From Solicoccozyma terricola (lineage: Eukaryota; Basidiomycota; Tremellomycetes; Filobasidiales; Piskurozymaceae), in the NCBI GenBank assembly GCA_001600875.1, contig BCLD01000002.1, positions 1,316,531 to 1,380,530 on the forward strand: 64,000 nucleotides of DNA, in the 5' to 3' direction. The notes beneath the pieces were generated by a model. The model was not told where the DNA came from. It worked only from the letters and a program-made list of their open reading frames with translations, and ran no database searches. Of the stretch, positions 779-59,408 are shown one piece after another. The position numbers were made by a program, and so were the translations under genes. Position 1 is the stretch's first letter; every line of letters starts with the position of its first letter.

Positions 779-3700
779 TCAGCAAAGGGAACCCAACCCC
801 TCGAACGACACGACGACACGATGAAAGTCGCCAACTAACCGCTCTGCCAACATGTTGCGAATCTGAGGATCCTCTGTAGGATCATCTAGGATTTGGTCCA
901 CAAGTACTGAATCTCGAATATCAATCGTGTTGATACGCATTCGTTTCTTTTGGAGAATGTATGCGTCGATGATCCGGGGGTCGCGTACGTATTCGGTTCG
1001 AGTCGATCCGTCGGGTAGCTGCAAAGGAGAGAATAAAATCCTGTCAATTCGCCGACATCGTTTGCGTGCGACGCACAGACGAAACGTAATTCACATACCG
1101 TTCTCATGATCTGAAGCACCTTCCCCTCGTCATTCACATGACGGTGTCTTGCATTCGGCTCCGATGATTGCCCGCGATCAGTCCCTCCCTCCATGTCATC
1201 ATCTTCATCCTCGTACTCCCCTTCAGCATCCTCGTCCTCATCGCTCAACAGAGGTTTCCTATCCTCGTCATCCATGTGAATATCAGGACGTGGCGCGGCA
1301 GGTGCGACGGCAGCTTGCTGCTCGTATTGCTGTCCGTGAAGCTGATCGGGAGCTGCGAGCGCTGCCATCTGATTGAGAAAAATCGACTGCCATCGCCAGG
1401 TGTAGTCTTCGACGTCCGCAGGTCGTCCTGCACGTACGGATCACGCAGCGATCAGTCGTCTTTCCCTACGTGCCCGCCCCTCCACTGACACTCACTCTTC
1501 ACACCCTTCGAGGGACCAGCGGTCCGCCGCAAATCGTATCCTTCAAATTCCTTGCCGGTTGGATTGCCTTTCGCCTCCAGTCGCAAACTCCACGGGTCCT
1601 TGATGTAGTTTCGAGTGATCTTCCACGCTGCCAACTGCATTTCTAACTGAGTTTCATCATCTGCGCCTTCATCCTCGGCAGCTTCTTCCTTGTCCTCCTT
1701 CGCAGTCTCCGGAACGTAGTAGCCCATGTCCGAAAGCAAACGAGCGGCAACGTCATGCGATTCGAGGAGGACGGCGTGTTCTGGAGTTGGGTTGTTTCGA
1801 GCGATGGCATCCGCGTACACTTTGTAGTTGGGATTGGTAGCATCAGCAGATGTGCGTGGACGCCACATTTCGTCCCGATCCGTTGTCAGATATTCCTGAG
1901 AGAATGACGCCGTCAGTGCTCGGCAGCCACGTCAGACCCCACCGTGCCCACCTTCAACTTGCCGGCATCTCGATCCTGATAATACCGCGTGATTTGACCC
2001 GTTTCCAGCGTACCTCCATTCTGCCTCAGGGCGGTCTGGATGAGGTACAACAATCTCTCTTTTCTATACGCTCCCATATCCTTGCTTTTGACGCCTGGAA
2101 CTGCGGCTTTGTGCGGCAGCGTTTGACCAACGACGAAAAGATGAGGAATCTCTCGGATATGATAGGTGGATTCGCCGTCGATCGTGCTCCTATTGAGGGT
2201 CGGTCGGTCGGTCGATCATGTTAGAGCTTAATAAATTAGGGCGGTCAGAAGAGGGAAAGAAAGGATCTCACCTGATCACCAGGAAATCGGTAGATGACGG
2301 CGAATGCTCGTAAAGCGGTGCACGAATTAAATTGTTCACCAACGTCTGTTGAATTCTTCCTCCAGCCATGAACAGCAATGGAATCGGTTCCTGTTCGGAT
2401 GGATCAAGAACAACAAACTCGCCGAGCGCATCCTGTGGATGCCAGCCAGGTTCACGCGTCGATTAGTCGTCGCCCACGTAGACCACCACCACAACACACA
2501 CACAAACCTTCTCCGGTCGAGTAAACTCGTCATTCTCAGATCCTTTCCTATAATACGTGATCAGATTCGACCCCATTCCGTATCCAGACATGATAGGAGG
2601 GTTTTGTTCCTGTTCGTTTCGCAACTCATCAGACGTCTTGTCAACCCCTTTGACCACGACAGTTCCAAATGCTCACCGAAAACTCCAACAAAACAAACTT
2701 GCCCTTCTCCGCTAAAGTCAAATCCCTGGTCGTCTTCATTACCTCACTCGGACTCTTATTCAACGTCCTAGCCGCTTTATCCTTCTTACTCTCCATCTTC
2801 TTCTTCAGTCCATCGAACGTGATCACTTCATCCGTCTGAAACCGAATCTTTGGTCGATGCCAATTCCGCTGTTGGGTTTTCGTCAAATAAACAGGATAAT
2901 AAGGCATTTGTAAACGGATTGCAGGTGTAGCATGTTGAATATCTAATGCGTCGATTGTTTGACGGATTTTTTGTTTGATTTCTCGAGTAGGTTGATAGTG
3001 GTGATCGAGAGAGAGATTTAGGTAATCGAGGTGAGTGATTTCACCGGGTTGAAGATGGGCAGAAGGTCCGCCTGCGATATTCGGCTCAGTGAGAGGAACA
3101 TCCGGATCGATTGATTGTCGAGCTGTTTAACCCCCCGATGACTGATCAGTATTTGGTATGCAAAGAAGGAAAAGGGACGCCGAAAAAAAGCCTTACCCAT
3201 GATCAATCTCGGATCCATAACGTCTCTATCCACTTCATCCCAAATCACATTCTCCAACCAATCACCCTTCTCCAATTCTTCATTGACGACCGAATATCTA
3301 CCAATACCATCACCAGTTTTCGGTGCTCTCGTTGGCGGTTCACTACCCAAAAAAAAGAAATCATCACAATCAACGAAATATGCCCCCTCGCTTGATGGAA
3401 AATAAATGAAATAAAAAGCTAAACGAATGCGTAAACTCACTCCCATATAATATCCTTCTCCCAATGAGCTAAAACGTTCATTTTCATAGACGTTCCAACC
3501 TTTTCTCCTTGTTCGTTCATGTACGTGATGTTCTCATGATCATCAACATGACCATCTACAATCTCCCTTTGTCGATTCCTACGTCCAATTTGTCGTCCCA
3601 ACCAACTCCCGTCGTTTCCAGTTAAATTAGCTGATTCACCCCACCTCAATAGAGAATTCGTCGTTGATTCAGGAATAGGGTTGGTTGTTGATTCAAGATG

Positions 3701-4635: not shown

Positions 4636-7215
4636 ATGTCCAGATCCATGCTCGAGCTCGAACAAGAGCTCGTAGCCATGTGGCAGCTCGTCAATGAATT
4701 ATCAGGTATGTTCTTCGTCTGACCACTTCTTGGACCACCGAATGGCTAATGCCGAAGGGGTTTGCGTTTTGGAATAGAACAATTGGCAGCGAATAGGGAG
4801 ATGACTGAGGTGTTACAAGCGCAAGCTAAGGATCTTAAGGTGGGTGTTGGGGGGTTTTTTTTTGGACATAGCGCATTGATTGTATAGATCTGATTTCATG
4901 TTGGGGATGAATCAGGGTCAAGCTGTTCATTCTGGGACTGGATTCCCATTGAGGAGGTTTAATATTGATATATCGGATGGCAAGTCTACTTCTCTATCAA
5001 ACTGGAGATCCATAAACTTCCGCACTCACTGACATCCCAATTATTCTCCGATATCAATCTACCTACCTCAACATCCGTCGCATCATCTACCCTCCCTCTT
5101 CCTCCAACAGAACAATTCACATCTGAATTAGAATCCTTTGCTTCACATCTCGTACTTGAAAACCAATCGTTACAATTCGAGAATAAACAGTTGAACATGT
5201 TGTTGAAAGAATATGAAGGGACTTTGGAAGGTGTCATGGGAAAGTTTAGAGCTGTTTCCGTGGGTTTTTTTGGTCCTTTTTTCCCGTCTTTCCAGGACCT
5301 TCTTTCCAGGAATTGATGATGCCGTTGGGAGATTAATGACGCTGATCTTGCTGCGCCCCCCTCCATTCGTTCCAAATAGCACGCTGCATCTCAACATGAA
5401 TTAACACTACATCAATATTACACATCCCTCTTACACCAACTCCGAACCGCATATTCCACGACGACTTTACTAGATAGTACCACACTCTCCACCCTCCTCG
5501 CTCGTTTATCAACTCTCCTTCGTGCTGCATTACGAAATGCTAATGGGGAATTACCTTCTGAATCTGGGTTCTCGGAAGATCTAACTACATTCCTCGAATC
5601 AACCTCTTCATCTCCTTCTTCAACGACACATCCTCGTTTAATCAGTACAGTTCATTCGATGAATTCAACGAGATCAAGAGCGTGGTTGGGGGATTTAGGT
5701 ACTTCAGGTGGATATTCTGGGACTGAAGGGAGAGCCGATTGGGCATTGGAGAGGGAAGCGGAGATTACGAGGTTGAATGAGGAGAATAGGTTGTTGAGAG
5801 AGATGTTGGGGATTGGAGCGGATGTTGATGAGGGTGAGAATAAGGTGAAGAAGGTGGAAGAGGTGGTGGAGGGAAAGGCAAATGTTGAACCACAGGTCGA
5901 CGAGGAAGTGCAAGTTTCAGAACCGCCTTTGGTGGCTGATATCGCTCCAGCTTCAGCACCGGCGTTATCAACGACGTCATCATCACCAACACCCAATCAA
6001 TCAGTCATAGGGTCCCTACCATCGAATCAACACCAACCAGTCGACATGGTCCGTTCCGTCTCGTCGCCTCCCGCAACACTCGAAAACGATTCCTTCCCTT
6101 CTCTCCAAGTACAGACCACCGCCACCACCGCCGCCACCACCACCACCACCACCACTCCACCGCCGATATCACCTCCTGCTTCCCGCGCTCGATCGCCACC
6201 TCGCTCAATTGGACGGCCGGGTCTCCTCCCGCCTCCTGCTCTGAGTCCACCTGTGATCAAAACACCGATTCCATTGCCCACTTTGGGACACGTAGCTGGA
6301 GAATCGTTCTCTCCCTCGGGTTCTACATCATCATCCCCTTCGTCATCTCTCATGGGTTCCAACCCAACGTCACCAACATCATCAAAATCAACAATCTCCA
6401 ACTCGTCGTCGTCATCTTCAATCTCACCTTCGTCTTCCATTGCAGGTCTATCGACCATCCCTGGAATCTCAACAAAGAAGACAAAGACGGAAGCTACGAC
6501 TGCGATGTCTGGAGGTAGTGGTAGTGGCGGTTTGGAAATGTTGGATGGGATGGAGGGAAGAGGGATGGAGGAGAGGGGGAGGTCGGTCTCGGGCCTTGGA
6601 GTGGGATCTAGCTCGGTGGCTTCTGCATTACCATCAACGCCGGCTACAGCTTCGTCCGCTACGGATAAATCAGATGACAAGACGACCAGCGTATCCCCGA
6701 TGACGATAGGAACAGCGTCTACGCCCGCTCAGACTAATGAAGATTTTGTGATAGACGAGGTATCCAAGTCTTCAGCTGATGATACCCAAGAAGCAGTCTC
6801 CGCTGCAACGGAGGAAGTAGTCACCTCGACGCCAGAATCAAATGCAACAGACGTTTCAACATTCCCATCATCCGCCACTCCACCATCGAATTCCACCATT
6901 GAAGATAAGCCTCTGGAACTGTCACCGAAGCCATCCGCCGTCTCCGCCGATGCCGAAGGTGTATCATCGCCCGAAACCGTAGAGGATGTATTGGTCCAGA
7001 TTGATGACAAGACAGACAAGACAGACAAGACGGACACGACGGACAAGGCGGACAAGGCGGACAAGGCTAAAACGGCTGACACGGCTGACAACACGAACGC
7101 GATGGAAGGTGAAACTAAGGCTTCCCCTGAGGAAGAGCGAGACGGCTTGGAATCGAGTGCTGCGCTCGTTTTAGATGGCACGGACGAGGATCAGGCTGAC
7201 GCTGAGGGATTGTAA
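4636..7215 (+). CDS. SIKE/FGFR1OP2-like coiled-coil protein
   Basis: Probable fungal member of the SIKE/FGFR1OP2 family, small coiled-coil proteins of the STRIPAK phosphatase-kinase complex. N-terminus MSRSMLELEQELVAMWQLVN is coiled-coil-like. After short introns come SELESFASHLVLENQSL, then NKQLNMLLKEYEGTLEGVMG followed by KFR (compare the family pattern EN..L...LEEHQ.ALE.IMSKYR). Further on is EITRLNEENRLLREMLGI, matching the family's ENKxLRExLxI block. The last ~400 residues are Ser/Thr/Pro-rich low complexity, with a Thr tract and a Lys/Asp/Thr repeat (DKTDKTDKTDTTDKADKADK) near the C-terminus; animal members lack this tail. One intron (4980-5110) appears to use a GC donor. Start chosen as the ATG at 4636 just after the CTCA tract. 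Family call is from motif spacing only; a generic coiled-coil protein is the alternative. Confidence 0.6.
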
Positions 7216-44569: not shown

Positions 44570-46836
44570 TCATTGAACCTCCAAATCCCAATTTGAAGGC
44601 TCTTCCTGATCCATCGACGCGGCTTGATAACGTCGAGCGTACGCGGTTTTATGCTGTGCGGCTTCGAGATCATCTTCGGCACGCGCGAGATCGTATCGTG
44701 CGAGACGAGCGGCGGCGGCGATGGATTGAAAGGTGTGGACCTTTTTGGCACGTTCGTAGTTTGATTTGATGAGCTGGAGGGGGATGGGAGATCGTCAGTC
44801 CAGAAAGAAAAAAGAAACCCCCCCCCCCCCCCCACCCCCCTTCCTCTTCACTCCCCCTGGCTATTCCCGAACGCAACTCACCTCCTCTTCCCACTGAAGT
44901 GATTTAGAGATCTCCCTTGAAGTAATCGTAATACTCCTCTCCTTTGAAACTTCTATAACCCTCTGTACGTTATCCAATTTCTCACGGGGGATGATGAGTG
45001 GTTCCTTTGGAGGTGGATACGTTTTCCATCCTCTTGCTGGTTTCGGAGGATGTTGCGTGATTGGTTGTCGGTGGTTGCTGGAAGGAGTGGATGCGGCGGC
45101 GGCGGCGTATGGGTTGTTATTCGGCGTAGCGCTTGTACCCGCTCTATGATCCGTCCCACCAGTTGCACCATAAGGGTTTGCAAGCGGTGTTCCCTTTAAC
45201 ACATGTCGGCCGTCATTTGACGACTTTCGAGCTGGTGGTGTTCCAGGTGACAAATCGACTGTCGTTGCTGGAGTTTGTGGACTGTTACTGGAATTCAAAA
45301 CATCTCTTGGTGATGGATCTGCGAAGCGAGGATTAGAGCTACGAGGAGCAAGTGTATCGGTGGATGGTTTGTTGGTTGATGTGTCTATGGATGTTGATGT
45401 AGGACTGGCTGCTTCGGCCATTACGACGTCTTCTGATGGTGGTCGACTCGATCGTGCCATTTCAATTGGTCGTATGACAGGAGGGAGACGGGGTACCGCG
45501 CCGCCACCGCCACCACCACTACCACCCGCCATTCGCTCGCTTCGTGGTCCAGAAGGCGGTGCGAATGGTTTTACACCACGATTGAGAGTTGCAGATGGTC
45601 CTTTAGGTGGTGCTATACTGAATGATATGGGTCGAGGTAAGGTGTATGGGTTTGTGGATGGTGATGTGGATGGAAGGGTGTTTGATATTGGTGTCGATGT
45701 CGATGTCGATGTCGATGTCGATGTCGATATTGATTGCTCGTCTAGTCTTGGTTTTTTAGATGGTGGTGGTGGTGATGATGATGATGGTGATGATGAAGAT
45801 TCGGGTGTACGTGTTGCTGAAGTATCAGCGCTGGGTATTGGTAGACCTTCCTTGTCATCATTTCGTGCTCGTTTCGATTCGATGAATCGTGAAGGAGGAC
45901 TTTTCCCGATTTTTCCGTCCGAGGAATTAGCACCGCTTGGTATTCTACCGTAGTCGCCACGATTTGATGGTGGGGGAAGGGAAGGACGGGATGGACCAGG
46001 AGGAGGAGCAGGAGGAGGCGGTGGAGTGACCATTCCTTCCTCCGATGAGTAGTCGTCGTGCTCTGCAGTGGATTTGTCGTCTGGTCGTGTAGAGTCTGTT
46101 TTGAAGGGGAGGACGTGGTTCGAGAGTCAGCTTGGAGATGCGAGGAACAAGGCTGGTTATGATCGCAGAGAGAGTAGAGAGAGTAGTGCTGGCTTCGTTC
46201 GCGAAAGAGATAGGTTCGTTCCGCAAAGAAATGAACGCACTACGTTCACAAGAGAATAATCTTCGCTCCTCGAAGACAGAAGAAAGAAGAGAGAATACTC
46301 CCTTCGCTCGCGAAGAAAGTAGTGCTCACTTCGTTCGCGGAGGATAGTCTTCGCTCCGCGAAGAAAGAAGAAAGAATGCTCGCTTCGCTTGCGAAGAAAT
46401 GACCCCTTCGCTCACACAGAATGCTCGCTTCGCTCGCTGAAGAAGAGCTCCCTGACGGGAATACGCCCAATTTTCTTATGTGAATAATTGGAACTCACAT
46501 GATCTATCATTTCCTCTCGCTGATCTTGGTCCCGTTGGAGCTCTTGAATCTCTTGAATCTCTTGAATCTCTCAAGTCTCTCAAGTCTCTCAAGTCTCTCA
46601 AGTCCCTCAAGTCCCTCAAGTCCCTCGAATCTCTCTCATAATCCCTCCCATCCCTCGAATCCCTCCCATCCCTCGAATCCCTTCCATCCCTCGAATCCCT
46701 CCCATCCCTCCCCCTGTCCTCGTCCCTCCTCCCTAATGAATTCCTACCAGACCATCTCCTTCTATCCCCACTTCTACTCCTCGATCTATTCCTACTAGGT
46801 CCAGAACTAGTACTCGTACTCCTCCCTCTCCTTCGA

Positions 46837-46867
<31 letters not shown>

Positions 46868-47219
46868 ACGAGGACGATTGAGGCTGCAGAAGAGGAGGCG
46901 GAGGAGTTGATACACGTGAATGTTCATTCGACCATTGATTTCCTCGATTGTCGTATCGTGTATCGTCGTATCGATGTGTTGTTGGACGTTGTCTAGAACG
47001 GGAGGGAGAGCGGGAACGGGATCGGGATCGGGATCGGGAGCGAGAACGTGAACGTGAACGGTATCGAGTACTTGGAGGACCTCGATAGTTGTCGCGGTCG
47101 CGGTCACGTTCACGATCGCGATCTCTCCATGGGATGTCACCACGTCGACGATCGATGTCTCTGTCTCTGTCCCTGTCCCTGTCCCTGTATGGATCTCTGC
47201 GTGGATAGTAGCCACTCAT
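44570..47219 (-). CDS. RS/RD-repeat-rich nuclear protein, uncharacterised
   Basis: Start MSGYYPRRDPYRDRDRDRDR. Exon 1 is almost wholly low complexity: RD dipeptides, an RS array (RYRSRSRSRSRSRSRSRSRS), a poly-Ala tract from GCC repeats (~46832-46866), then repeats of SRDGRD and of RDL. Exon 2 holds VTPPPPPAPPPGPSRPSLPP, a Ser/Thr tract from GATGTC repeats (45692-45726), and a more conserved-looking end, PARGWKTYPPPKEPLIIPRE then KLDNVQRVIEVSKERSITIT. The last exon is helical: LIKSNYERAKKVHTFQSIAA, AARLARYDLARAEDDLEAAQ, ending MDQEEPSNWDLEVQ. I do not recognise the family. The RS and RD arrays suggest a splicing or transcription role, by composition only. The first intron (46096-46498, 403 nt) contains the longest palindromic array in the window. 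Confidence 0.65.
46185..46460 (-). repeat. Palindromic array A, inside RS/RD-gene intron
   Basis: About ten diverged units of 22-30 nt, each built on a CTTCGCGAGCGAAG-like palindrome followed by a CGAGCATTCT-like tail (transcript sense). It fills about two thirds of intron 46096-46498. It shares an exact 18-mer AATGCTCGCTTCGCTCGC (plus strand, 46420-46437) with array C and an exact 17-mer (46343-46359) with array D. Confidence 0.9.
46560..46720 (-). repeat. Coding tandem repeats (RDL and SRDGRD units)
   Basis: Two abutting tandem arrays in exon 1 of the RS/RD gene: CAAGTCTCT-type 9-mers encoding Arg-Asp-Leu, and CCATCCCTCGAATCCCT-type units encoding Ser-Arg-Asp-Gly-Arg-Asp. Both keep the reading frame. 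Confidence 0.85.
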
Positions 47220-47395
47220 TGGAGTGTGAGGAGTGTGAGTAGGGGTAGTAGTGGTAGTAATAGATACTTGTATTACTTGTTCCCCCCGGCGCTGTTTCCC
47301 CCTGTCCCTCCGTGAGAAAATACATCCCCCCCCTCCCCCCCTCACATACACACACAACACAACACAACACATCCCAACACATCCACACATCCATC
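47220..47395. promoter_or_regulatory. RS/RD gene / SCD6 bidirectional promoter
   Basis: 176 bp between outward-facing start codons, with an ACAACACAACACAACAC repeat near 47354 immediately upstream of SCD6 and C-rich runs near 47326-47340. No CACGTG seen. Confidence 0.5.
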
Positions 47396-49753
47396 ATGGA
47401 GGCAGGTCTCATCGGGTAGGTCATCCTCAGCCACACACCCTGTACCACTGCTCCTCCCGCTCACAACCACATTCAACCACCCTCCCCTCCTCCCCCCCCC
47501 TCCTTTTTCCACCCTCCCCCACCACACAGAGCGAAGATATCCCTCACTTCGAAATCAGATATTCGGTATCGTGGGACGTTGAATGCAATAGATCCTGTAG
47601 CTAGTACCATTTCATTGGAAAATGGTACGTTGGGCGTTGGTCGTTGGTCGTTGGGGTTTCGGCTCGGGGACTTCTCTTCTGTCTTGCTGGAAAATCGAAT
47701 TGACAAGCCACCCCCCTTCTCCTTTTTTTTTCGATGTTTTTTTTTTTCGATATTTTTTTCGCATTTTTTTTCCTCTTCTTTATTCCCATTCTACTAGTCG
47801 TTTCAATGGGTACGGAAGATCGTAGACCACCAGAGTCGACTATTCCAGGTACAGATACGGTATATGAATTCGTAGTATTTCGGTTAGTCCTTTTTCTCTC
47901 TCTCTCCCCGCTCATACACGTAACCACCTTTCAAAACCACTGACCATAACCCCTCCCCCCTCTCCATTATCTTTTGTTCCTCTTTCCCTCTCCTCTCATC
48001 TCCTCTCCTCTCCTCGGCGAACGATAAAAATAGCGCAGCAGACGTTAAAGATCTAGGTATCGAACAACCACCACCACCACCTAAACAACAAGTTGTATTA
48101 CCTCATGATCCAGCAATCATGAGTGTTGGACAGAATCAACAGGGGGTGACATATCAGGTATGTGTTTGTTTTCGGGTTTGGTGGATATGGGGTGAATGAT
48201 GGGGTTTTGGGAGTGAAGCGAGGGGGATATGCGGGAGAGCGTAGCGAGCAGTACTCTCGTCTTCGTGAGCGTAGCGAGGTATACTCGTCTTCGTGAGCGA
48301 AGCGAGCAATATTCCTCTGTTCTCTTCTGTCTTCCCTACCCCGCTCTTCTCTCTCCCAATCCATCCGAACAACCATTCATTTTCTCCTCTCTCTCTCTTT
48401 GTCTTTTTTCCTCCTCTGTTTTTCTTTTCTTTCTTTTCTTTCAACGATGATGAAGTATTTTTTCGGATGTTAAAAAATCGTACTTGTACGATTAATTGTC
48501 CGAGATGCGCAAAACCCCATGTGGATGATTTCCGTTGCCTTCCTTCTGAGTTGAAAAAAAAGAAAAAAGAGAGAATGGAAAAAAAGAAAACGAAAAAGAG
48601 AAAGAAAGAAGATTGGTGGTGGTGCGACGAGAAGGAAGGGTTGCCTCTTCTTTTCCTTTGTTTTCCTTTTGACCTGATCAAGTCGCTGATTTTGGATGGA
48701 TTCTCATTCTTTGATTAGCAACGTACTCCACAGCAGGCGTATCAGCAACCTCAACAGCAGCAGCAGCAGCAGCAGCAGCAACCACCACCACCACAACAAC
48801 CGCCACAACCGCCACAACCGCCACAACAGCAACAGCAACATCAACACCATCAACACCATCAACACCATCAACAACATCGCTCTCCACAACAACGACAACA
48901 TCAACTTCCACATCCACCTCAACCCACCGCTGGTCCTTCTCAACCCACCGTCCAACCTCCTCCCGTCGCTCGACCACCCGCACCACGTCAACAATCCTCA
49001 TCATCAGATCAACTCTCTACAGCGCTTCAAAACGTCGAAAAAGCGATCGGAGAATTGTCAGTTGGGAATATACATCGTGCCGGCGGTGGTGGACCTGGCG
49101 GAGCTCATGGTAGAAGAGGAAATCAATTCACTTCTACGGGTCAAGGTCTACCTGGATCTTTATCCGCTAAAGCTCCACCGGTTCCTCAAGAGGAATTCGA
49201 TTTCGAAGAGATGAATAAGAAATTTCAAGTATTGAGGGAGGAAATGGATGGTGGGAAATCAGCCAAATCAAAAACGACTATGAGTTCGAGTAAGACTACC
49301 AAGACGAATGGTGTGAACAAGTCGAGAGCTACCATCGTCGCAGAAGAAGATTCAAGTGACGAAGATGACGATGATGATGATGACGCGGGAGGAGTGGTCG
49401 CTGGATCTCCAGGTGCAAGTGTCGCGTACAACAAGCAGAAATCATTCTTCGATTCAATGTCATCAGACGTCATCATTCCATCTCATTCTGCTCCTCCTGG
49501 AACCAACGGGGCATCTTCCTCGTCTCGCGGTGGTCGTGGACGAGGTGGTAGTATGGCGGGTGGCGGTGGTGGATATCATTGGAAGCGATCGGACGAAGCG
49601 GCGGCGAATATGACGACGTTTGGAGAGGCTGGATCGAGTTGGAGGGGTGGGAGAGGTGGGAGAGGTGGAGCGAGGAGAGGAAGGGGTAGGGGTGGTGGTC
49701 ATGATGGACAGAGACAAGGTCAATCGTCGTCGTCTCAAGTGGCACAGTCGTAG
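47396..49753 (+). CDS. SCD6: SCD6/LSM14 mRNP protein
   Basis: Translation repressor and decapping activator of P-bodies. Start MEAGLIG (exon 1). The LSm14 domain continues AKISLTSKSDIRYRGTLNAI, DPVASTISLEN, VVSMGTEDRRPPESTIPGTD, TVYEFVVFR and SADVKDLGIEQ. After a 561-nt intron comes a Gln/Pro/His-rich region (QQPQQQQQ…), then the FDF motif region PQEEFDFEEMNKKFQVLREE. A Ser/Asp stretch follows, then NMTTFGEAGSSWRGGRGG and a C-terminal RGG-rich tail (GGARRGRGRGGGHDGQRQGQ). LSm, FDF and RGG are in the expected order. The 48158-48718 intron carries palindromic array B plus opposing T/C-rich and A/G-rich tracts. Confidence 0.93.
48229..48345 (+). repeat. Palindromic array B, inside SCD6 intron
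   Basis: Three units with ~28-nt period, for example CTTCGTGAGCGAAGCGAG, each followed by a short A/T/C tail. It lies in intron 48158-48718 and is in the same sense as the SCD6 transcript when written with the unit consensus CTTCGCGAGCGAAG. Confidence 0.88.
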
Positions 49754-49978
49754 TGACCACCCTGCTGTCTGAGGGAGGAGAAATCGGAGGCTTGACGAAA
49801 AGATACCAAGAAATGACGAGTTGTTCGATGTGGACCCTTTTACTTTTATTTGTATGGCGGTGCCCGAACACCTTTTATACTATTTACGCGCACAAGCAAA
49901 AGGCAACAAAAGATTATGCAAATGTGATGACCTATGTTTTACACATCTATCAACCGACAAGCACCAGCATCCATCTAT
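49754..49978. other. Convergent 3' region, SCD6 / SQT1
   Basis: 225 bp between stop codons, with TTTTACTTTTATTTG-type sequence. Probably both 3' UTRs; no gene seen. Confidence 0.4.
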
Positions 49979-51848
49979 CTACACTCGCCAGACTAAGACA
50001 GCTCCATCGTCGCCTGCACTGACCACGACATCGCCGTCCTTGGCGACCGCATCCTCCTCCACTCCCCAACCCGTCGGAGCTCTGCCAACCTTGACGTCGT
50101 TGATGACACCAGCGTGACCCTTGTGCTCGCCGATGAGAACACCCGTTCGTGCGTCCCATGTTCGAAGCGATTTGTCGGCTGAGCCGGTCGTGAACAAGTG
50201 ACGGTTGGGTGCCGGGTGGGCGGCGATCGAGGTGATTACATCCTGCACACGACACAAGCGAAATCAGATGATATTATCTAGCAAAGGAAAAGTAGTCAAT
50301 CAACTCACTCCATGCGTCACCTCGGCTCGCACATTACCCGTGGTAACATCCCACACCACAGCTCTTCCATCGGTACTGCAAGAAACGAGCACCAAACCTT
50401 TGGTGCCACTAGCCTCGCCACCCGGTCCAGCCAAACCGAGGATATCCATAAACTGCAAACCTTCGATACTTTCTCCCTGCTTGTGGCCTTTTAGTTGACC
50501 AACGACATGTCCGCCCGGCAAATTGATCACTCGGATTTGCCCGTTCGCGCCACCGATGGCAAGCAGGTTGGAGGAAGGTGCGATATCGAGACAGGTGATA
50601 CCACCTTCACCTTGAGCAGAGAAATAACCGAATTGTGTGGTAGCATTGGGTGCGAGTTTGAGAAGAGGACTTGGAGATCGCGGATCCCAGATACAGAGAG
50701 ACTGGTCGGCGGATGTGGTGATGAGAAGTTTACCTGATGGAGTGAAGAGCCCGGAAGTGACGGTGTCGGTATGGGCGGAAAAGACCTGCATGGTGTTGCC
50801 GGATGGTACTGGGACGTGAACATATTTATTCAGCTGATTGGGCGGAGGCTTGGGTAGGGCGTGCAAAGGACTCACACTGCCACATCCAAACGGTGGAATC
50901 ATTACAACCTGCAGCCAATACAGGACCTTTCGGATGCCAAGCGATCCACTGTCGAGTACGCACCACCACCTCTCGTCAGCCATCGCACGCTCCTTGTTTT
51001 TTTTCTTTTTTGGCATGCCACAATCTCCTTCGTACTCACCGTCACCTCATCCGACGTATCCAGACTCGTCAAGAATTCCCAATTCTGCCATTCACTCCAG
51101 TCACCTTCCTCCGTTGCGGACGCCGATTTCCCTTTAACCCGTCTCCAGACTCGGACCTTGCCATCCATTCCACCCGTAGCAGCCATCTCACCATCGTTCG
51201 AGAACTTGGCGCTGATGACGGAGTCGGTGTGGCCGGTAAGCTGGATAGGCTGGAAGGCAGCGAAGGTGGCGGACGGTGCAGAGGAAGAAGAGAATGGGGA
51301 GAAGATGTATCCCATGTCATCTTCACCGCCAGAGATGGCGAGTGGTGGGTTTGGGAAGAGCGGGTGGAGGGCGACGGCGAAAACTGACGAGGATGGGTTG
51401 TGGTGGACTGGTGGAAGGAAGGTGAATGGAAGTCAGTGACGGTAGACTCAAACGGTAGCTCCAGACCAGTGCCATCGGCTGTGCTCAATCGAGGGAAGGT
51501 GCTCGCAGAGGCCAGAGAGTATAGCTCGCTGCACTCGCCACGAAAGACAGTCCAATGCTCGCTTCGCTCGCGAAGAACATAGAAACAGCTCGATGCGCTC
51601 GCGGACTCACGCGCATGACCCAAACTATTATCCTCCACCGGCTCCTCATCCTCATCCTCCTCTCCTTCCATCCCTTCATCCTCCATCACCATCTCCAACC
51701 CCCCACCCTCCTCGTCATCCTCATCCATCGGCGCATCATCGTCATCTCCAAATTCAATGACCTCTACTATATCGTTAACATCGAATTGTTCCTCCTGTTC
51801 CTGATCTTCAAGCTCTTCCTCGTCTTCCTGGTGATGCGGCTGCGACAT
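49979..51848 (-). CDS. SQT1: SQT1/AAMP WD40 ribosome-assembly protein
   Basis: WD-repeat chaperone-type factor for large-subunit assembly (yeast Sqt1, animal AAMP), acting on ribosomal protein uL16/Rpl10. The N-terminus MSQPHHQEDEEELEDQEQEE is highly acidic and contains VNDIVEVIEFGDDDDAPMDE. WD repeats follow: LTGHTDSVISAKFSNDGEMA with GKVRVW, WIAWHPKGPVLAAGCNDSTV with WMWQ, and FSAHTDTVTSGLFTPSGKLL with SLCIWDP. Next are GGITCLDIAPSSNLLAIGGA, VLVSCSTDGRAVVWDV, DVITSIAAHPAPNRHLF with KSLRTWD, and a last SAGDDGAVLVWRV. The WHPKGPVLAAG block is characteristic of this family. The first intron, 51408-51610 (203 nt), is dominated by palindromic array C. It shares a promoter with UTP22, another ribosome-biogenesis gene. 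Confidence 0.91.
51490..51610 (-). repeat. Palindromic array C, inside SQT1 intron
   Basis: Three units in intron 51408-51610. In transcript sense the array starts at the donor itself: the GTGAGT donor is followed directly by a CCGCGAGCGC unit. It shares the 18-mer AATGCTCGCTTCGCTCGC (plus strand, 51554-51571) with array A. Confidence 0.9.
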
Positions 51849-52121
51849 GGTGCGAGGGGTAAGAGGTGTGTGAGGGAGATGGGTACGGTATGTCGACTTT
51901 TGAATGAATATTATTATCAATCCCGACCGAGTGCTTTCAACATTTATAGGAACTTGATCACGTGACATTCTCGCCACCGTGGGCACGTGACATTCTCGCT
52001 CACATTCTCCCAAATCCGCGGTGCAATCATTCATTTCCATAATTTCCATTTCAACTACTGAAGTCATGAGCCGCCATGAACCATGTCTCCAGGACATTCT
52101 TAACTATCACTCCTTCAAACA
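51849..52121. promoter_or_regulatory. SQT1 / UTP22 bidirectional promoter with duplicated E-box
   Basis: 273 bp between outward-facing start codons of two ribosome-biogenesis genes. A 16-bp direct repeat CACGTGACATTCTCGC occurs at 51959-51974 and 51984-51999, so two CACGTG E-boxes lie 25 bp apart. A third partial ATTCTC follows at ~52003. Confidence 0.75.
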
Positions 52122-55100
52122 ATGCCTTCCATCAAGCGCAAGGCACCTCCAGGGACGGCATCAGCTGGACCAAGTAAGCGCAAGCAGCAGGAGGAGCAGC
52201 AGGAAGTCAAGCACGATAATGCTATGATGAGATTGGCAATGGAGGATGATATGATTGACGGCGATGAGGATGAGGAGGATGAGGATGAGGATGGGGATGA
52301 GGAGGATGAAGATGAGGATGAAGACGATCAAGATCTAGAAGAACTCAACGGATCAGAGTCGGCAGCTTTCCAAGACATTGAAGAGGAACACCCCGAGACC
52401 ACCTCGAAATCCGCCGTCAAAGGAAAAGGCAAAGCAGATAAAAATGGTCTCTTCAAACCTCCTACAGCTGAAGAAATGAGACTGTTGAGATCGAGGGAGG
52501 ATCGTGGTGGGGGTTTCGATACTGGAATGAAGGTGAGCTACTTCTCGACGACTACTCAGCTTCTCAGTTACTGACGAAATCGACTTGCCGTTCCCCTTAG
52601 ATCAACGCTCTTCTCCAAGCGACTCTCCTTCAACCCACATCGGCTACCAAACCGCCTACCAGTCTCACTGCATTCCTAACTTCCTTGCATACCCATCTGT
52701 TGTCTCTTCCCACCTTGCCACCTCTTCCACTGAAAATGGCGATTCAACGCCTCCAACCCGTTAAAATTCCATTCACGTCTCCTTCACCCGTCAACGAGAC
52801 GGAACCGAAATGGAAACTTGGTTGGGAGAAACCAACAGAGGTGTTTGTAGCTGGGAGTTGGGGAGTAGTGGGTGGTTACAAGAGGGAGAAGAAGAAGGTT
52901 GGAGGTAAATGGGAGGTCGGAGTCGGCAAGGTTGATTTAGCAATTTTGATGCCTGATGTGAGTTCGCAGTCTTCTCATTCCCGCCCTAGCCGTATCCCCT
53001 TACTGACCGTTAGCGAATGATTTTCAGGACATGTTCACACCCAAAGATCGTCTTTCCAATAGATATTTCCATAAACGAGCACATTACCTCGCTGTGATTG
53101 CATCTTCTCTGCTTGAGAGGGCCAAGAGTCTTGGTAAGGATGACGTGTGGAAAGGAGTGCAAGTGGAATGGGAATATATGGGCGGCGATGGGAGACGACC
53201 GGTGTTGGTTGTTACATTACCCAAAGGTCAGTCCGTTGTAGTCGGGTGTGACGACAGACATGACTTGCTGATCCCCAAAACGCGTCCGCTCACTCAACAG
53301 ACAAAGCGAAAGGACTAAAATATCGTCATTCTGTTCGATTGATACCTACCATCCGACCTGGATTGTTCCCCGTCCACACTCTTTCTCCAACAAAGGCAAA
53401 TCTTCGTATTCTTTCATCCTCCGATTCATCCGCGGAAGTCTTCTCACCTAGTCCGAGATACAACACCTCCATCCTTCTCGATACCTCTCAACGATCCCAC
53501 CTTCTCGCATGCCACGCTCTTAACAAGTCGTGCCCAGCTTTCAAGTCCGCTCTAGCGCTATGGAGGATATGGGGAGAACAAAGAGGGTTGATGGATCGCA
53601 GTGGAGGGGGGCTCAATGGATGGGGCTGGACAGGTCAGATGGTGCTTGGGATGGCCGTGGAAGGGGGCAATGTGGCAGGAAAGAACGGGGAGATCAAAGC
53701 GAAGAAAGGGCTGGGAAGGGGTTTAACAGAGTGGCAGTTGTTCAAGGCGGGACTTGAGTTTCTGGGTGAGTCGAAGAGAAAACTTTGCGGTAACCGCGTC
53801 AACTACTGAGGTAAATTTTCCGCTCGTTAGCTTCTACCGATTTCAACAAGACGCCGGTGTTCATGAAAGTAGCAGCTGGCATGGAGGCTGTGAGTTGCTG
53901 ACGGAATCCGGTGTTGTGAAACTGCCATTAACGGGAGAAGTTGTTCCTGCAGATCCCTCACAATGAGTTCATTGCCGCCTTTCGAGACGTCTTTGTCGAT
54001 CTTACCGGTACCATTAATATCTGGGCAAACTGGGAGCAAGGAGAGCTACAACTGGTTAGTTGAAACTATTCTTTAGGTTCCTTAGGGCGAATGCTGACAA
54101 TGGTTGATGTTCCCATCCAGCTGCGACATGAAGCTCGAACAACGCTTCTGATGCTTGCTGAATCAACTCACGATCATTTCGATGATGTCTTCTTGAGACC
54201 TCTGCATAGCAGCGCTATGAAGTTCGACGAGGTACTGAGGTGAGCCACATGGTCAAGGTGATTTAGTAGCTGGGACCCAATTAACGAATGGGTTGTTCGC
54301 AGAATTGACATCCGAGAGTATACCGAGCGCAATCCGCCGTCTGATCCAATCGAGCTCCATGAGTGTCCTCTGGCCATGCAAAGGCTCGCAGCGGCCATCG
54401 GTTCAACCCTCAGACGAGGCTTGGGTGATCGTTCACGGCTAGTCACGACGCTCGTCGCGCCGCCACCAAGGTGGACATGTGATAGAGACGGCCCAGCCTT
54501 TTCGATCTATGCCGCTGAGATTGGGCTCCTGTTAGACAAGACCGAGGCGAGTCGAGTTCTCGACCAGGGACCAACATCAGAACAGCCTGAAAAGGCCGCC
54601 GCATTCCGGGACTTCTGGGGCGAAAAGGCGGAACTTCGTCGTTTCAAGGACGGAAGTATCACCGAAAGTGTTATTTGGCAGGTGGCTCGACCAGAGGAAC
54701 GGGCTCTGATTCCTGGCCAGATCGTTTCCTGGTTGTTGAAACGTCACTTCAACCTGAGCGCGACCGCAATCTCATGGTCATCACCAAGCTTGCAAAGACT
54801 GCTCCAGATCCCAGATTCCTCCCATCACCTCAAGATGATTGAAGGCTCGGAAAAGCTTGGTTTCCGCCCAGTCATGGACGCATTCGACAAACTGTACAAG
54901 ACCATCAAGGCTATGGACGACGAGCTACCTCTCAGCATCCTGAACTTCACCCCTACGTCCGAATACCTACGATACTCAAGTACATTTGTTCCTCATCCCT
55001 TCGACCTGGCCAGGGCCGGAGTCGCGCCTACCTGTATTCGCCACCTACCCACGGTCGACGTGATGATGCAGTTTGAGAGCTCCCGAAAGTGGCCAGACGA

Positions 55101-56602
55101 CTTGGTGGCAATTCAAAAGGTCAAGATGGCGTTCATGGAGAAGATGGCGAGATTATTGCAAGACAAGATTGCCGATGTTCGGAGTAACGTCGTGCTCGAA
55201 TCCGGTGCACCTGACATCCAGGACCACGTTTGTCTCGAGGTCATTGTTCCCGAAGGTTTCGCTTACCACTTGCGCATCTACCATGATCGTGAACGGACCC
55301 TGCTGTTGAGGATGGTCGAAGATGACGAATTACCGTCACCGAAGCTTCGCAAGATCGCCCTTGATTGCCTCAAATTACACGCGCGCCGGTTCACTCTACT
55401 ACCTCGACACCACGCGGCCATGGCAACGCTGCATCATATGCACCCCTCGTTCGCTAGTGCGAGTCGTTTGCTTAAGCGTTGGATTTCTTCCCACATGCTG
55501 TCCTCTCACCTGAGGCCCGAATTTACCGAGCTCGTTATGGCAGGCGTATACCTATCGCAAGGTCCTTCGGGTGTACCAACGAGTGCAGGAGCTGCATTCT
55601 ACCGTGCTATTCACCGTTTAGCACATTGGGACTGGAAAGAAGAGCCGATGGTTGTGCCGCTTTATTCATCAACGACAAACAACCACGACAGTGATGGTAC
55701 AGATACGAATGCCGTCGTCATGCCTTCGGACTTGCTAGCCTCTGCCATGTCCCAGTTCGCTGCGGAACGCAAGGCAGATCCGCAGTGCAGTAATGGCGCC
55801 CTCAGGATCGTTACCGAGGAAGACTTGGATGGAACGTCATGGACGATCCTTCATGAATCCGGTAGAGTATTGGCTGGGCGATTGGTAGCACTTGCAGCCG
55901 CCGCATGTGATGCCCTCGAGGCCAACGGGCTGGAGGTTACCAATCCACCCATCGAGGTGAGCTGCAGCAACCGAATTTTCATGTGGCTTTCGCTAACAGT
56001 CGCTCTTGACAGATCTTCTTCAAGACACCCCTTTCGCACTTCGATTTCCTGCTACACCTCAATCCATCGGCGATCTCTCGACTCGACCAGAATCTCGAGG
56101 CTCAAGATGCTACCTTCGCCAAGCAGTGGACAAGTCATGTACGATCTGTCCGTCAGTCTGGTATCAATGATAACGTTGAAGCGGGTCTCAATCCGGCAAG
56201 CGAGTACTTCCGTGATCTTCAGGTGCGGCCTTGATTGTCGTCCGGCTTATCTTGTTTAATTCCGCTGAAACGAGACTCGACCCTCACAGCGATTGTTCGG
56301 CTCAAACGTCCTCCTCTTCTGCGACGACTCGGGAGGAACTGTCATTGGGGGGCTGTGGAATCCATCCATCGCACCTCTGCGCAACTTCAAGCCATTCCTC
56401 GGATACAGCAGCAAGCCTGCTGACAGCGACGGCAAGAAGGTGGGTTGCCGTTGGTACCACGAGCTCATAGACTCCGCTAACTCCGGCTCTGGCTTGCTCC
56501 CAGACTTCGAGTATGGTCGAGGCAGACAAACAGGACATGCTGGATGAGATGGCACGGCTTGGTGCGGGCATCGTAAGCAGAGTTGAGATCCTGCGCGAAT
56601 AG
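52122..56602 (+). CDS. UTP22: UTP22 / nucleolar Nrap protein
   Basis: Structural component of the UTP-C module of the 90S pre-ribosome (Nrap family). Start MPSIKRKAPPGTASAG, then a long acidic tract (DEDEEDEDEDGDEEDEDEDE). Conserved Nrap blocks: VAGSWGVVGGYKR, VGKVDLAILMPD, then DMFTPKDRLSNRYFHKRAHY; next PGLFPVHTLSPTKANLR and LALWRIWGEQRGL. Then comes GWGWTGQMVLGMAVEGGNVA followed by AFRDVFVDLTGTINIWANW. After that are the hallmark FWGEKAELRRFKDGSITESV, the second nucleotidyltransferase-like half with SASRLLKRWISSHMLSSHLR, and finally GSNVLLFCDDSGGTVIGGLW. The last exon ends with AGIVSRVEILRE. Full expected length. It is tail-to-tail with ERG4 (119 bp). Confidence 0.94.
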
Positions 56603-56721
56603 ATGTAAATATATGCATTGTCCATTCATTGTCTTTCATGGTTGAATATGAGACGAGACATCCATGCAGAAATAAATTTCTTCTAGTCACATTGTGTTCG
56701 TTGAGTTCGCATGCATATATC

Positions 56722-59408
56722 CTAGTAGACACCTGGAATGAACCGGTATTTGACGACTGCGAAGACGATATGATGTTAGGATTAGGGAACTGTTCACAAA
56801 GATGGAACCAGAACATTGCTTACCTTCGCAGTATCGTTGCCAACTGTTGCAGCGGACGTTGGTGTGTCAGCGAAAGGTCTTGCTCAACAGCAGCAGTGTC
56901 TGGTCACTCACTCGTCTCCATACTTCCTAGCACATCGCTCAAAGTCACGACCGCAACGATGAGTAAGCACAGCCAGGAAGAATGCCGGGTAGAAGAAAGT
57001 GATGGGGGTATGGAAACCGGCAGAAGCACCCCAGATGAAAGATTGGATCCAATCTAGTGCAGTCAAAAAAGCGGATGTTAGTGATGGGTCACCGCGATAA
57101 TCGCCGGTCGTGAATGCGTACCGGCAGTGTAGTTCTGCAGGAAGGCAAAGTGGAGAAACGTAAGGCTCCAGGTCAGACACAGCCAACAATAGATCCATTG
57201 CATCCACACTTACCGGTTTACGAGCCCAAGCCCACCAGCCGCTTGTCAAAAGCTTGTTGCCGTGCTTTGTTTCGATGTAGGTTGGGTTCTCAACAACAGC
57301 TCCTGGTAGTTGAGGGAATGACTTTCGTGGCTTGTAAACGCCTTGTTGCTGCATTTTAAAGCTATTGGAGATTTGCGGGACATTCTACAGTTAGTCAAAG
57401 GCTCGAGAAAGGATTGAGATGTAGGGGACTTACGCGGACTTCTGTGCCATGGAAGTGTCGAAGCTGCATGATCACGGAGAGATCAGCATTGATGGATCGA
57501 CGGAGATTTCCGAAAGGTACGTACACATAGTAGGCGCCCAATAGAGTAGTGGCCATGACGACGACCAGCCAAGTAGGGAATTGGTACGACTTCGGGTCGT
57601 TCCTCGCCATGTAGACGACAGGGTAGCAGTAGGTGAAAGGACTGGTGTGGTTGAGGGATGTCAGTCACGAGGAATGATATTCAAGCATTCAGCGGAGTTG
57701 TCTTACACGCCGGCCATGTTCCAGAAGATGAGCATGAATCCGAACTTTTCATGGTACATGTCCCACTGTCGAATCCATCCGGGTCAGAGTCAGTGGGAAA
57801 AATCAACAAGTGGGGTTTTCGCAGAACAAGCACTCACGGTTTGAGGAATCATTTGCTCGGCTTTGGCACTACCACGTTGTTTAACAATCGTCGATTGTGA
57901 GTCTTTGGTGCTTGATCAACTTCTCGAAATGACACGGTGCTCACCAAGCGTTGATGTAAAGACCAGTGCCAAGAATGATAAGCATCATATTCTAATATGA
58001 CCGTGGAACACATCAGCGTTAATAGATCATGGGCGATGTCTCGCCGGACTCGACTTGCAACTTACTCCAGTCACGTAACCATGCTCCTCATATTGCTTGA
58101 CACCACCACTGATGGCAATGGTGAACAACAAAACCCAAGGGATTCTGACCTCTGCGAACATTTTCAGATCTACACCTTGCCAATTTTTCCTCCCGAATGC
58201 GAAGATTTGACTTGTAAACAACCTCGGATTGAGTGAAGCTCCCATGAAGATATCATAAACGACATTACCCGACATTCGAAGTGGTTCACCTCCGTAATTG
58301 AAATTGACGGAGAGTAGGTAGATCAAGAGTGTGACGGCGAATGAAACGATGATGGCGACGGTCATGATACTTCCAAAGTGGTCGATGAGGGTTGGAAGAG
58401 GGAAGATACCGGTCACATGTAAACCAAAGGAGAGGAGGAGGGTGGTGTAGAAGGAGGAGAGAGCGTTGCAGTGGTAGAGGAGAGCGCGGTAGTTTAGAGA
58501 GGGGACGGGAAGGCCTGGTGGGTTGATGATAGATTCGTCAGCTGGTGTGAAGAGAGATCATTGCGTGAAAAGGATTCTTACCTTCTTGGTCCATGCCAGG
58601 CATCACGAGAGCAAGGAGCAATTGAATTGCAACGAGACTGAGATAGGTAACAAGAGCAATCCTTGTCGGAGCAGCATCCTGAATGGGAACAGGTAGAGTC
58701 GGAGAACGTTAGCAAGAGCTTGAGAAGAGAGCATCTCTCATCGCACTCGTAAAGACAAATAGAGTATTGCTCGCTGCGCTCGCGGAAGAGATAGTCTTCG
58801 CTCCGCTAACGGAATGAGTGCTCAATAACGTTCGCGAAAGAAAGACCTCCCTAACGCGCGGCGTGGCTTTCGCTCAGCGCGCAGACGGACCGGTCGCTCA
58901 CCTTCTTGACATGTTCACCAAGCCGTTCGAGGAACGGCTGGATTTCCGATATCGAGGTCGGGTGTACGAGTTTACCTTGATAGAACCATAGACAGATCCA
59001 GAGGTAGTCTGTATGTGTGGTGCGGTGTGCGGTGTATGGTGTATGGTACGACGCGACAGATGAGCTACTGCGCGTTCAACTGGTTGTGAGAACGAAAACG
59101 AGTGACTGACACATGAGAGCTGGGAAACCCAGCATCATAGCTGTTACACCGACTGGACCACCGAATTCCCAGCTGTAAGGAGTGAAGGGAGTGGGTCAGG
59201 GTTAAAATGCACCGAGCTGAAGTATTATCAGGGTCCCCCCTCATGCACCATCATCCGGGACGCACTCGGTATGACTATCCAACTGCTTGTCGATTTCCTT
59301 GCCATGGGCGGTAGGCTGGTAACCTGTGGTCTTGGGTGCAGCGGCGTGTGTGGTGGCCTTTGCCGCTGTTGCTGCGAGAGTGGCCCTCTGCCTGACTGAC
59401 TGAGCCAT
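56722..59408 (-). CDS. ERG4: ERG4 delta-24(28) sterol reductase
   Basis: Last enzyme of ergosterol synthesis, an ER multi-pass membrane reductase using NADPH. Start MAQSVRQRATLAATAAKA; the next exon reads WEFGGPVGVTAMMLGFPALM, typical of ERG4. Later exons: YYLWICLWFYQGKLVHP, TRIALVTYLSLVAIQLLLAL, TGIFPLPTLIDHFGSIMTVA and YGGEPLRMSGNVVYDIFMGA. Then SLNPRLFTSQIFAFGRKN, DPKSYQFPTWLVVVMATTLL, KHGNKLLTSGWWAWARKP and GFHTPITFFYPAFFLAVLTH, and the conserved end DDWQRYCEVVKYRFIPGVY. Substrate- and NADPH-binding blocks of the family are present. Its intron 58679-58901 (223 nt) is largely palindromic array D. It is divergent from DCN1 with a CACGTG in the shared promoter. Confidence 0.95.
58735..58901 (-). 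repeat. Palindromic array D, inside ERG4 intron
   Basis: Four to five diverged units filling intron 58679-58901. In transcript sense the donor GTGAGCG is itself part of a unit-like sequence. It shares the 17-mer GATAGTCTTCGCTCCGC (plus strand, 58790-58806) with array A, and has the unit core TTCCGCGAGCGCAGCGAG. Confidence 0.88.

Follow-up and report, generated by a model that had tools for sequence, protein, structure and literature searches.

Four introns in four genes of the basidiomycete Solicoccozyma terricola, within a 64,000-nucleotide stretch of contig BCLD01000002.1 (positions 1,316,531 to 1,380,530 of the forward strand; 'the window', in whose own coordinates positions are given below), carry arrays of a short repeated unit that belongs to a family dispersed through the genome. 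The arrays are oriented with transcription in nearly all decided cases, start a short way past the 5' splice site and are best preserved at that end. They are tentatively interpreted, with a probability of about 0.4, as a hairpin-forming interspersed minisatellite. Its multiplication would take place at the DNA level, by a mechanism that we infer, and it would survive by sitting in introns.

Genes were predicted with a gene finder trained solely on the fetched sequence, which yielded 92 genes and 519 introns (donor consensus GTGAGT) in a 316-kb sample comprising 47 motif-selected loci and the window. Array A (46185..46460, minus strand) contains five near-consensus units, their 20-mers starting at 46187, 46296, 46323, 46377 and 46422 with no more than three mismatches to CTTCGCGAGCGAAGCGAGCA, together with decayed units. 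It lies in an intron of 403 nt (46096..46498, minus strand; ends GATCAT/GTGAGTTCC ... TCAAAACAG/ACT; forced-intron gain +15.8) in the gene model 44570-47219 (minus strand), whose RS/RD-rich product was named by eye. Array B (48229..48345, plus strand) has units at 48261 (up to four mismatches) and 48289 (up to two) as well as decayed ones; its intron of 576 nt (48158..48733, plus strand; gain +20.7) belongs to a Scd6/LSM14-like gene (47396-49753, plus strand; Pfam LSM14, 6e-28). Array C (51490..51610, minus strand) consists of a perfect 20-mer at 51556 with decayed neighbours, the first unit being 8 nt past the donor, in an intron of 203 nt (51408..51610, minus strand; gain +29.5) of a WD40 gene (49735-51848, minus strand; Pfam WD40), where a single frame is open across the intron (ORF 51069-52097). 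Array D (58735..58901, minus strand), with a unit at 58768 (up to three mismatches) and decayed units, occupies part of a 223-nt intron (58679..58901, minus strand; gain +18.0) in an ERG4/ERG24-family sterol reductase gene (56302-59408, minus strand; Pfam ERG4_ERG24, 1.6e-102). All four arrays are thus in predicted spliceosomal introns and each is oriented with transcription; the placement in four introns of four genes, made in an earlier note from the letters of the window, is confirmed by sequence reading and by the gene models.

The family extends well beyond the window. A genome-wide search for the unit, which the earlier note had suggested, was run on 23.9 Mb in 33 contigs and gave hundreds of cores, with reversed-sequence controls near zero except for one mirror-like core type. 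The exact sequence CTTCGCGAGCGAAG has 65 + 61 copies (control 1), and the 20-mer has 220 matches with at most one mismatch (control 0). The two main core types together account for 766 perfect 15-mer cores: 532 of type a, GCGAGCGNAGCGAGC (control 14), and 234 of type b, GCGAACGNAGTGAGC (control 0), while the mixed types number 22 (control 0) and 19 (control 2). For the hairpin core H1, described below, the reversed control carries no information, since this core comes close to mirror symmetry. Core loci number 25, 15 and 5 on contigs C1, C2 and C3, for which the lists are complete, or 8.6 per Mb; extrapolation of this density gives about 205 loci in the whole genome. In the sample, 63 arrays have two or more units and range from 2 to 34 units. 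Spacings of 27/28 and 22/23 nt are the commonest, so that the arrays have the head-to-tail arrangement and the unit length (10-60 nt) of a minisatellite. Short unit patterns were also sought in viral contigs, where patterns of this length are estimated to match by chance.

The positions of the arrays relative to genes were assessed in two ways. Loci L009-L055 had been picked by exact match to CTTCGCGAGCGAAG and only L056-L061 by other patterns; L001-L008 were omitted, being contained in L009-L012, as were 34 lone matches with two or fewer mismatches, a number close to the roughly 24 estimated to arise by chance. By midpoint, 34 of the 63 arrays fall in sense introns, two in antisense introns, none in exons, and 27 where there is no gene model, many of the sampled loci being short pieces with cut-off genes. 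One of the 34 assignments, that of the second array of L020, depends on a donor within the array itself. A forced intron-versus-intergenic test was then applied to 70 arrays, namely the 63, the six loci found by other patterns, and array D. It placed 50 in sense introns, 2 in antisense introns and 18 in neither; among the six other-pattern loci, five favour sense introns and one does not. The intron preference proposed from the window extends to the larger sample, with 52 of 70 arrays decided as intronic and no exonic midpoint among 63, even though introns make up only 25% of the sampled bases, against 31% unpredicted or intergenic and 44% exonic. Four of the 18 undecided arrays look like sense introns of genes recognised by eye alone: biotin synthase (L041), Vps36 (L045), a ubiquitin-conjugating enzyme (L048) and a TruB-type enzyme (L036). 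At L034, L041 and L043, among nine loci viewed, runs of N adjoin the arrays, so that the assembly has probably broken or masked some arrays, whose true length may exceed what is visible.

Within introns the arrays are anchored to the donor side. Of the 63 arrays, 46 have a good donor no more than 40 nt upstream of their first unit, compared with 2 of 63 on the opposite strand; since the units contain donor-like words, a small number of these 46 donors may in fact be decayed units. The first unit is a median of 13 nt past the donor, and the last a median of 167 nt ahead of the acceptor (range 45-492, 33 introns). In genes with a predicted start, the first intron holds 21 of 31 arrays where 9.0 are expected (p = 1e-5), and 9 of 12 arrays in later introns begin 6-23 nt past the donor. 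Host donors are also stronger than others: T occupies position +6 in 94% of 34 array-bearing introns and in 71% of 429 other introns.

Pfam scans of host proteins indicate that the hosts are unrelated genes. In seven of ten scanned proteins the predicted junction falls inside a domain (guanylate kinase, succinate dehydrogenase-like FAD_binding_2, AhpC-TSA, ribosomal S8, condensin Cnd2, peptidase M16 and UBA_4), and in the window hosts of arrays B and C it is outside the best domain match. The host at L012 resembles a Maf-family gene, judged by eye.

Three distinct stems in the units mostly share loops of the form GNA or GNNA, nearly always on the coding strand. The first, H1 (GCGARCGNAGYGAGC), is a covarying core whose loop is GNA and which has two neighbouring G.A positions; its closing pair covaries genome-wide, being A-T in 234 and G-C in 532 copies as against A-C in 22 and G-T in 19. 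The pattern GAnCGnAGnGA, by which 430 cores were collected in the 316 kb, itself fixes the G.A positions, the inner C-G pair and the GNA loop. At the remaining positions of these cores, 6-12 are G-C in 268 and A-T in 114, with no C-G and one T-A; 3-15 are C-G in 344, T-A in 29, T-G in 19 and C-A in 7, with no G-C and one A-T; and 2-16 are G-C in 328 and C-G in 31. There is no pairing signal at the next two positions outward in the 430 cores. The G.A positions occur essentially in the context pyrimidine-GA-purine alone, which is the known context of tandem sheared G.A pairs. H1 cores with a GNA loop number 439 in the sense orientation (341 of them fully paired) and none in antisense, and a tetraloop form has 6 fully paired copies. 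The second stem, H2 (GTCTTCGC-GGA-GCGAAGAC), is found at 72 places, with a GGA loop in 42 and a GNA loop in 46 of the 50 listed. The third, H3 (GCTCCC-GTYA-GGGAGC), is found at 78 places; the loop is GTNA in 69, of which 66 have GTYA, unlike GNRA, the tetraloop favoured in RNA.

Perfect stems of at least 6 bp within arrays number 112, compared with 36.5 in shuffles, and their commonest loops are c(GGA)g (36), c(GTCA)g (19), c(GTTA)g (8), G(CGAG)C (7) and c(GAA)g (4), while no loop exceeds 0.5 in the shuffled sequences. Loops of the GNA/GNNA form, that is c(GGA)g, c(GTCA)g, c(GTTA)g and c(GAA)g, close 67 of the 112. The palindrome which the earlier note took as the key structure ranks behind GCGARCGNAGYGAGC, where the covariation sits, and may still act as a competing fold. 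As to known structured RNA, no Rfam family was matched in L016, L026, L048, L049 and L052 at E ≤ 0.1 or over the window arrays at gathering thresholds.

Decay along the arrays is polar, with near-consensus units on the donor side and decayed units toward the acceptor. Of 50 arrays bounded by good units, 35 have a positive Spearman's rho (p = 4e-4). A wider version, which is biased since it reaches further downstream, gives positive values in 39 of 51 with one undefined, and mean mismatches of 0.93, 0.63, 0.91, 1.39 and 2.11 in successive fifths. Apart from the closing pair of the two types, pairs in decayed units without type c arms match the expectation from column composition. The pairing and expected fractions are 0.64/0.62, 0.68/0.68 and 0.60/0.62 in 92 units with two mismatches, and 0.45/0.47, 0.52/0.54 and 0.51/0.47 in 124 units with three or four. 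An apparent excess of pairing in the latter class (0.52/0.38 and 0.57/0.42) disappears once the 37 of 161 units with type c arms are removed. The hairpins are thus intact in young units and are not visibly maintained later, and there is no sign of lasting selection. Identical stretches of up to 75 nt are shared between arrays on different contigs, the 75 nt being common to arrays on C17 and C14, which bears out the earlier suggestion that the repeat has spread between loci.

These properties may be accounted for if H1, H2 and H3 form hairpins in vivo. The coding strand would be single-stranded or newly copied toward the 5' end of a gene, either because repair synthesis enters from the side of the promoter or through displacement during transcription, and hairpins would then fold on the coding strand. 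Slippage of the nascent strand at such hairpins could add units. Growth limited to arrays with stable loops on the coding strand would give the orientation, the 5' polarity and the first-intron bias. Ectopic template switching or gene conversion might carry pieces of arrays to other loci, while introns would tolerate the arrays and older units would drift.

Several observations weigh against this interpretation. Gene models leave 18 of the 70 arrays undecided, the arrays at L012 and L027 are antisense, and the six units at L058 (C1:1675300-1676400) apparently lie outside introns, between a stop codon identified by eye and a tRNA gene (RF00005, 47.5 bits); one copy of H2, at C15:811042, is inverted relative to its neighbours. 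The covariation may stem from three or four founder types rather than from many events. In folding models, the initial 300 nt of 24 arrays (the first 24 that have at least six units and lack N) do not exceed shuffles in stability, with mean z values of +1.26 for DNA sense, +1.00 for DNA antisense and -0.25 for RNA sense, and the DNA energies of the two strands do not differ (11 of 24 arrays), although this test is weak because the models (ViennaRNA) do not distinguish the triloops shown by energy. Under RNA parameters, 18 of the 24 arrays have the more stable fold on the sense strand (p = 6e-4), as would fit an RNA role. Over the four H1 pairs in array units, G.T exceeds A.C (157 against 104), as tolerance of G.U in RNA would give; the excess is mainly T-G at two CpG-containing pairs, and C-to-T decay is also a possible source. 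Finally, the GC skew of the sense strand is only 0.013, which implies no special tendency to form R-loops, and an R-loop explanation through strand asymmetry is unsupported.

An RNA-level function is a rather doubtful alternative to growth at the DNA level. Hairpins in the nascent intron RNA might hold off cryptic splicing or polyadenylation, or enhance expression near the promoter, and selection on the transcript would keep the orientation. The 50:2 excess of sense arrays, the bias to intron 1, the position beside the donor, the stronger host donors (+6 T, 0.94 against 0.71), the preference of the RNA model for the sense strand (18/24) and the G.T excess would all follow. There are, however, a mere 205 or so loci; the units decay along the arrays, with no pairing preserved beyond the founder types; G-T and A-C are about equally frequent genome-wide at the covarying pair (19 and 22); and the loops are GNA and GTYA, not GNRA or UNCG. 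RNA-mediated spread, in which an intron lariat or circle is reverse-transcribed and recombined in the sense orientation at the 5' splice site of other introns, with new units joining on the donor side, is unlikely. It would explain the mostly sense, intronic and donor-proximal placement of the arrays, the presence of young units at the donor end, and the modules of 75 nt identical on different contigs, but the host introns have no shared 3' ends, and the apparently extragenic array and the two antisense arrays are not expected from it.

Simple tolerance of the repeat in any non-coding DNA, with the intron preference and donor proximity reflecting merely the room for insertion between donor and branch site and no special mechanism, seems a poor explanation. 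With a median intron of about 90 nt, the tolerated room would indeed be near the donor, and a few arrays are outside introns or antisense. Pure chance is nevertheless excluded by the reversed controls (0-2 against 19-234, and 14 against 532 for type a), and neither the 52 of 70 intronic decisions with their 50:2 orientation, given more unpredicted or intergenic (31%) than intronic (25%) bases, nor the polarity of units along arrays is anticipated. The notion, raised in the earlier note, that the element is introner-like and creates introns upon insertion fares worst, and we regard it as very improbable. It draws on the dispersal of a related sequence within introns of unrelated genes, on the good donor close upstream in 46 of 63 arrays, and on the donor-like word GTGAGC in unit type b. 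Yet host introns resemble one another in their last 45 nt no more than other introns do (the longest match averages 5.94 nt against 5.38 nt, with maxima of 18 and 17), so that the family is not a canonical introner. The host introns are not linked by common sequence at both ends, the arrays usually cover neither splice site (the medians are 13 nt between the donor and the first unit and 167 nt between the last unit and the acceptor) and do not border both, and array length varies between 2 and 34 units. Membership among introners was rejected after the 3'-end comparison, and the proposal that the element creates introns is not supported.

Two further features of the window may be recorded. A match to RF00335 (65.9 bits, gathering threshold 47) lies at 48438..48556 on the plus strand. 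A TAF1-like protein encoded in the window gave 13 matches in a homology search, with 28-36% identity to those from named tremellomycetes (Cryptotrichosporon, Cryptococcus, Tremella, Vanrija, Naematelia, Cutaneotrichosporon and Kwoniella) and 26% to two from Smittium; this agrees with a tremellomycete origin, and no close relative is among the matches.

Precedents exist for parts of this system. DNA mini-hairpins with a GNA or GNNA loop and at least two G-C pairs are extraordinarily stable, GCGAAGC having a Tm of 78 C (Hirao, Yoshizawa; PMC4686876). The fungal hairpins resemble the d(GCGAAGC) class in that most have a GNA/GNNA loop, a closing C-G and two or more G-C pairs, and GCGAAGC occurs within the commonest unit; in that source, however, the class consists of oligonucleotides and parts of aptamers, whereas here it is about 205 genomic repeat loci, nearly always on the coding strand. 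CeRep25B of C. elegans is likewise a short palindromic tandem unit (24 nt) with 75% of copies in introns, but it is clustered on chromosome III and less so on II, and the portion of PMC4039745 at hand mentions no orientation bias, donor anchoring or loop rule. The 'sequence stuttering' in introns of avian dot chromosomes is also imperfect tandem expansion, in some cases touching exon borders; it arises locally from the sequence of each gene (PMC12954441), while the fungal arrays are one family dispersed across genes. Introners, too, are repeated sequences in introns of many genes, recognised by similarity of intron ends (PMC9860276), in contrast to the unrelated 3' ends of the fungal host introns and the variable length seen here. 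The intron gain in Cryptococcus CNN00420 also involves repeat expansion and introns in a tremellomycete, but concerns one gene and a repeat of about 107 nt that includes exon ends and intron (PMC2395259), whereas the present units lie inside introns of many genes. The literature search, with most subscription journals outside it, found no report of such fungal arrays or of GNA/GNNA hairpin minisatellites. What is unusual here is the set of rules of structure, strand and polarity in an interspersed intronic minisatellite.

The same unit types are also found in a bacterium. An intergenic array in the Paludibacter metagenome-assembled genome contig JAQTOL010000256.1 (L127, about 4860-5260, minus strand) contains units of type a, of type b and of a form resembling type c, GTGAGCGAAGCGAAC, in alternation with GCCGAAGGC hairpins, whose loops are almost all GAA. 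It thus shares the fungal types and has another cGAAg hairpin, but differs in having no introns; the resemblance may represent either homology or convergence. A SAM-II riboswitch match (57.9 bits) lies at 3207-3266 (minus strand) of the same contig. The 18-mer TCGCGAGCGAAGCGAGCA is present in at least 117 prokaryotic contigs, as against about 7 expected by our own estimate under uniform composition. In many copies (Geothrix, Holophagaceae and others) it caps a longer GGGGGAC(A/G)...GGCGGTCCCCC stem; such stem tips are seen at L077, L087, L090, L096, L103, L115, L116, L137, L150, L153 and L161. Some of the prokaryotic matches to the 18-mer appear to lie within conserved coding sequence.

A bolder form of the DNA-level interpretation, which is doubtful, would regard the units as a sequence-level replicator, selected for folding into mini-hairpins that have GNA/GNNA loops and tandem G.A pairs, on the strand copied or exposed from the promoter, with polar growth beside the 5' splice site and with the same unit having arisen or persisted separately in bacterial intergenic arrays. 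If this is true, the sole 'gene' of the element would be a DNA shape. More generally, the arrays offer natural, genome-wide sequence evidence that DNA mini-hairpins of unusual stability, so far known from work in vitro, may be driving the growth of repeats in cells. Since each array records orientation, polarity and position in its gene, models of repeat expansion by repair synthesis, transcription or RNA-templated copying would be separable by experiment. For the introns of this fungus, the arrays present a clear case of introns that have apparently been lengthened, not created, by a spreading repeat.

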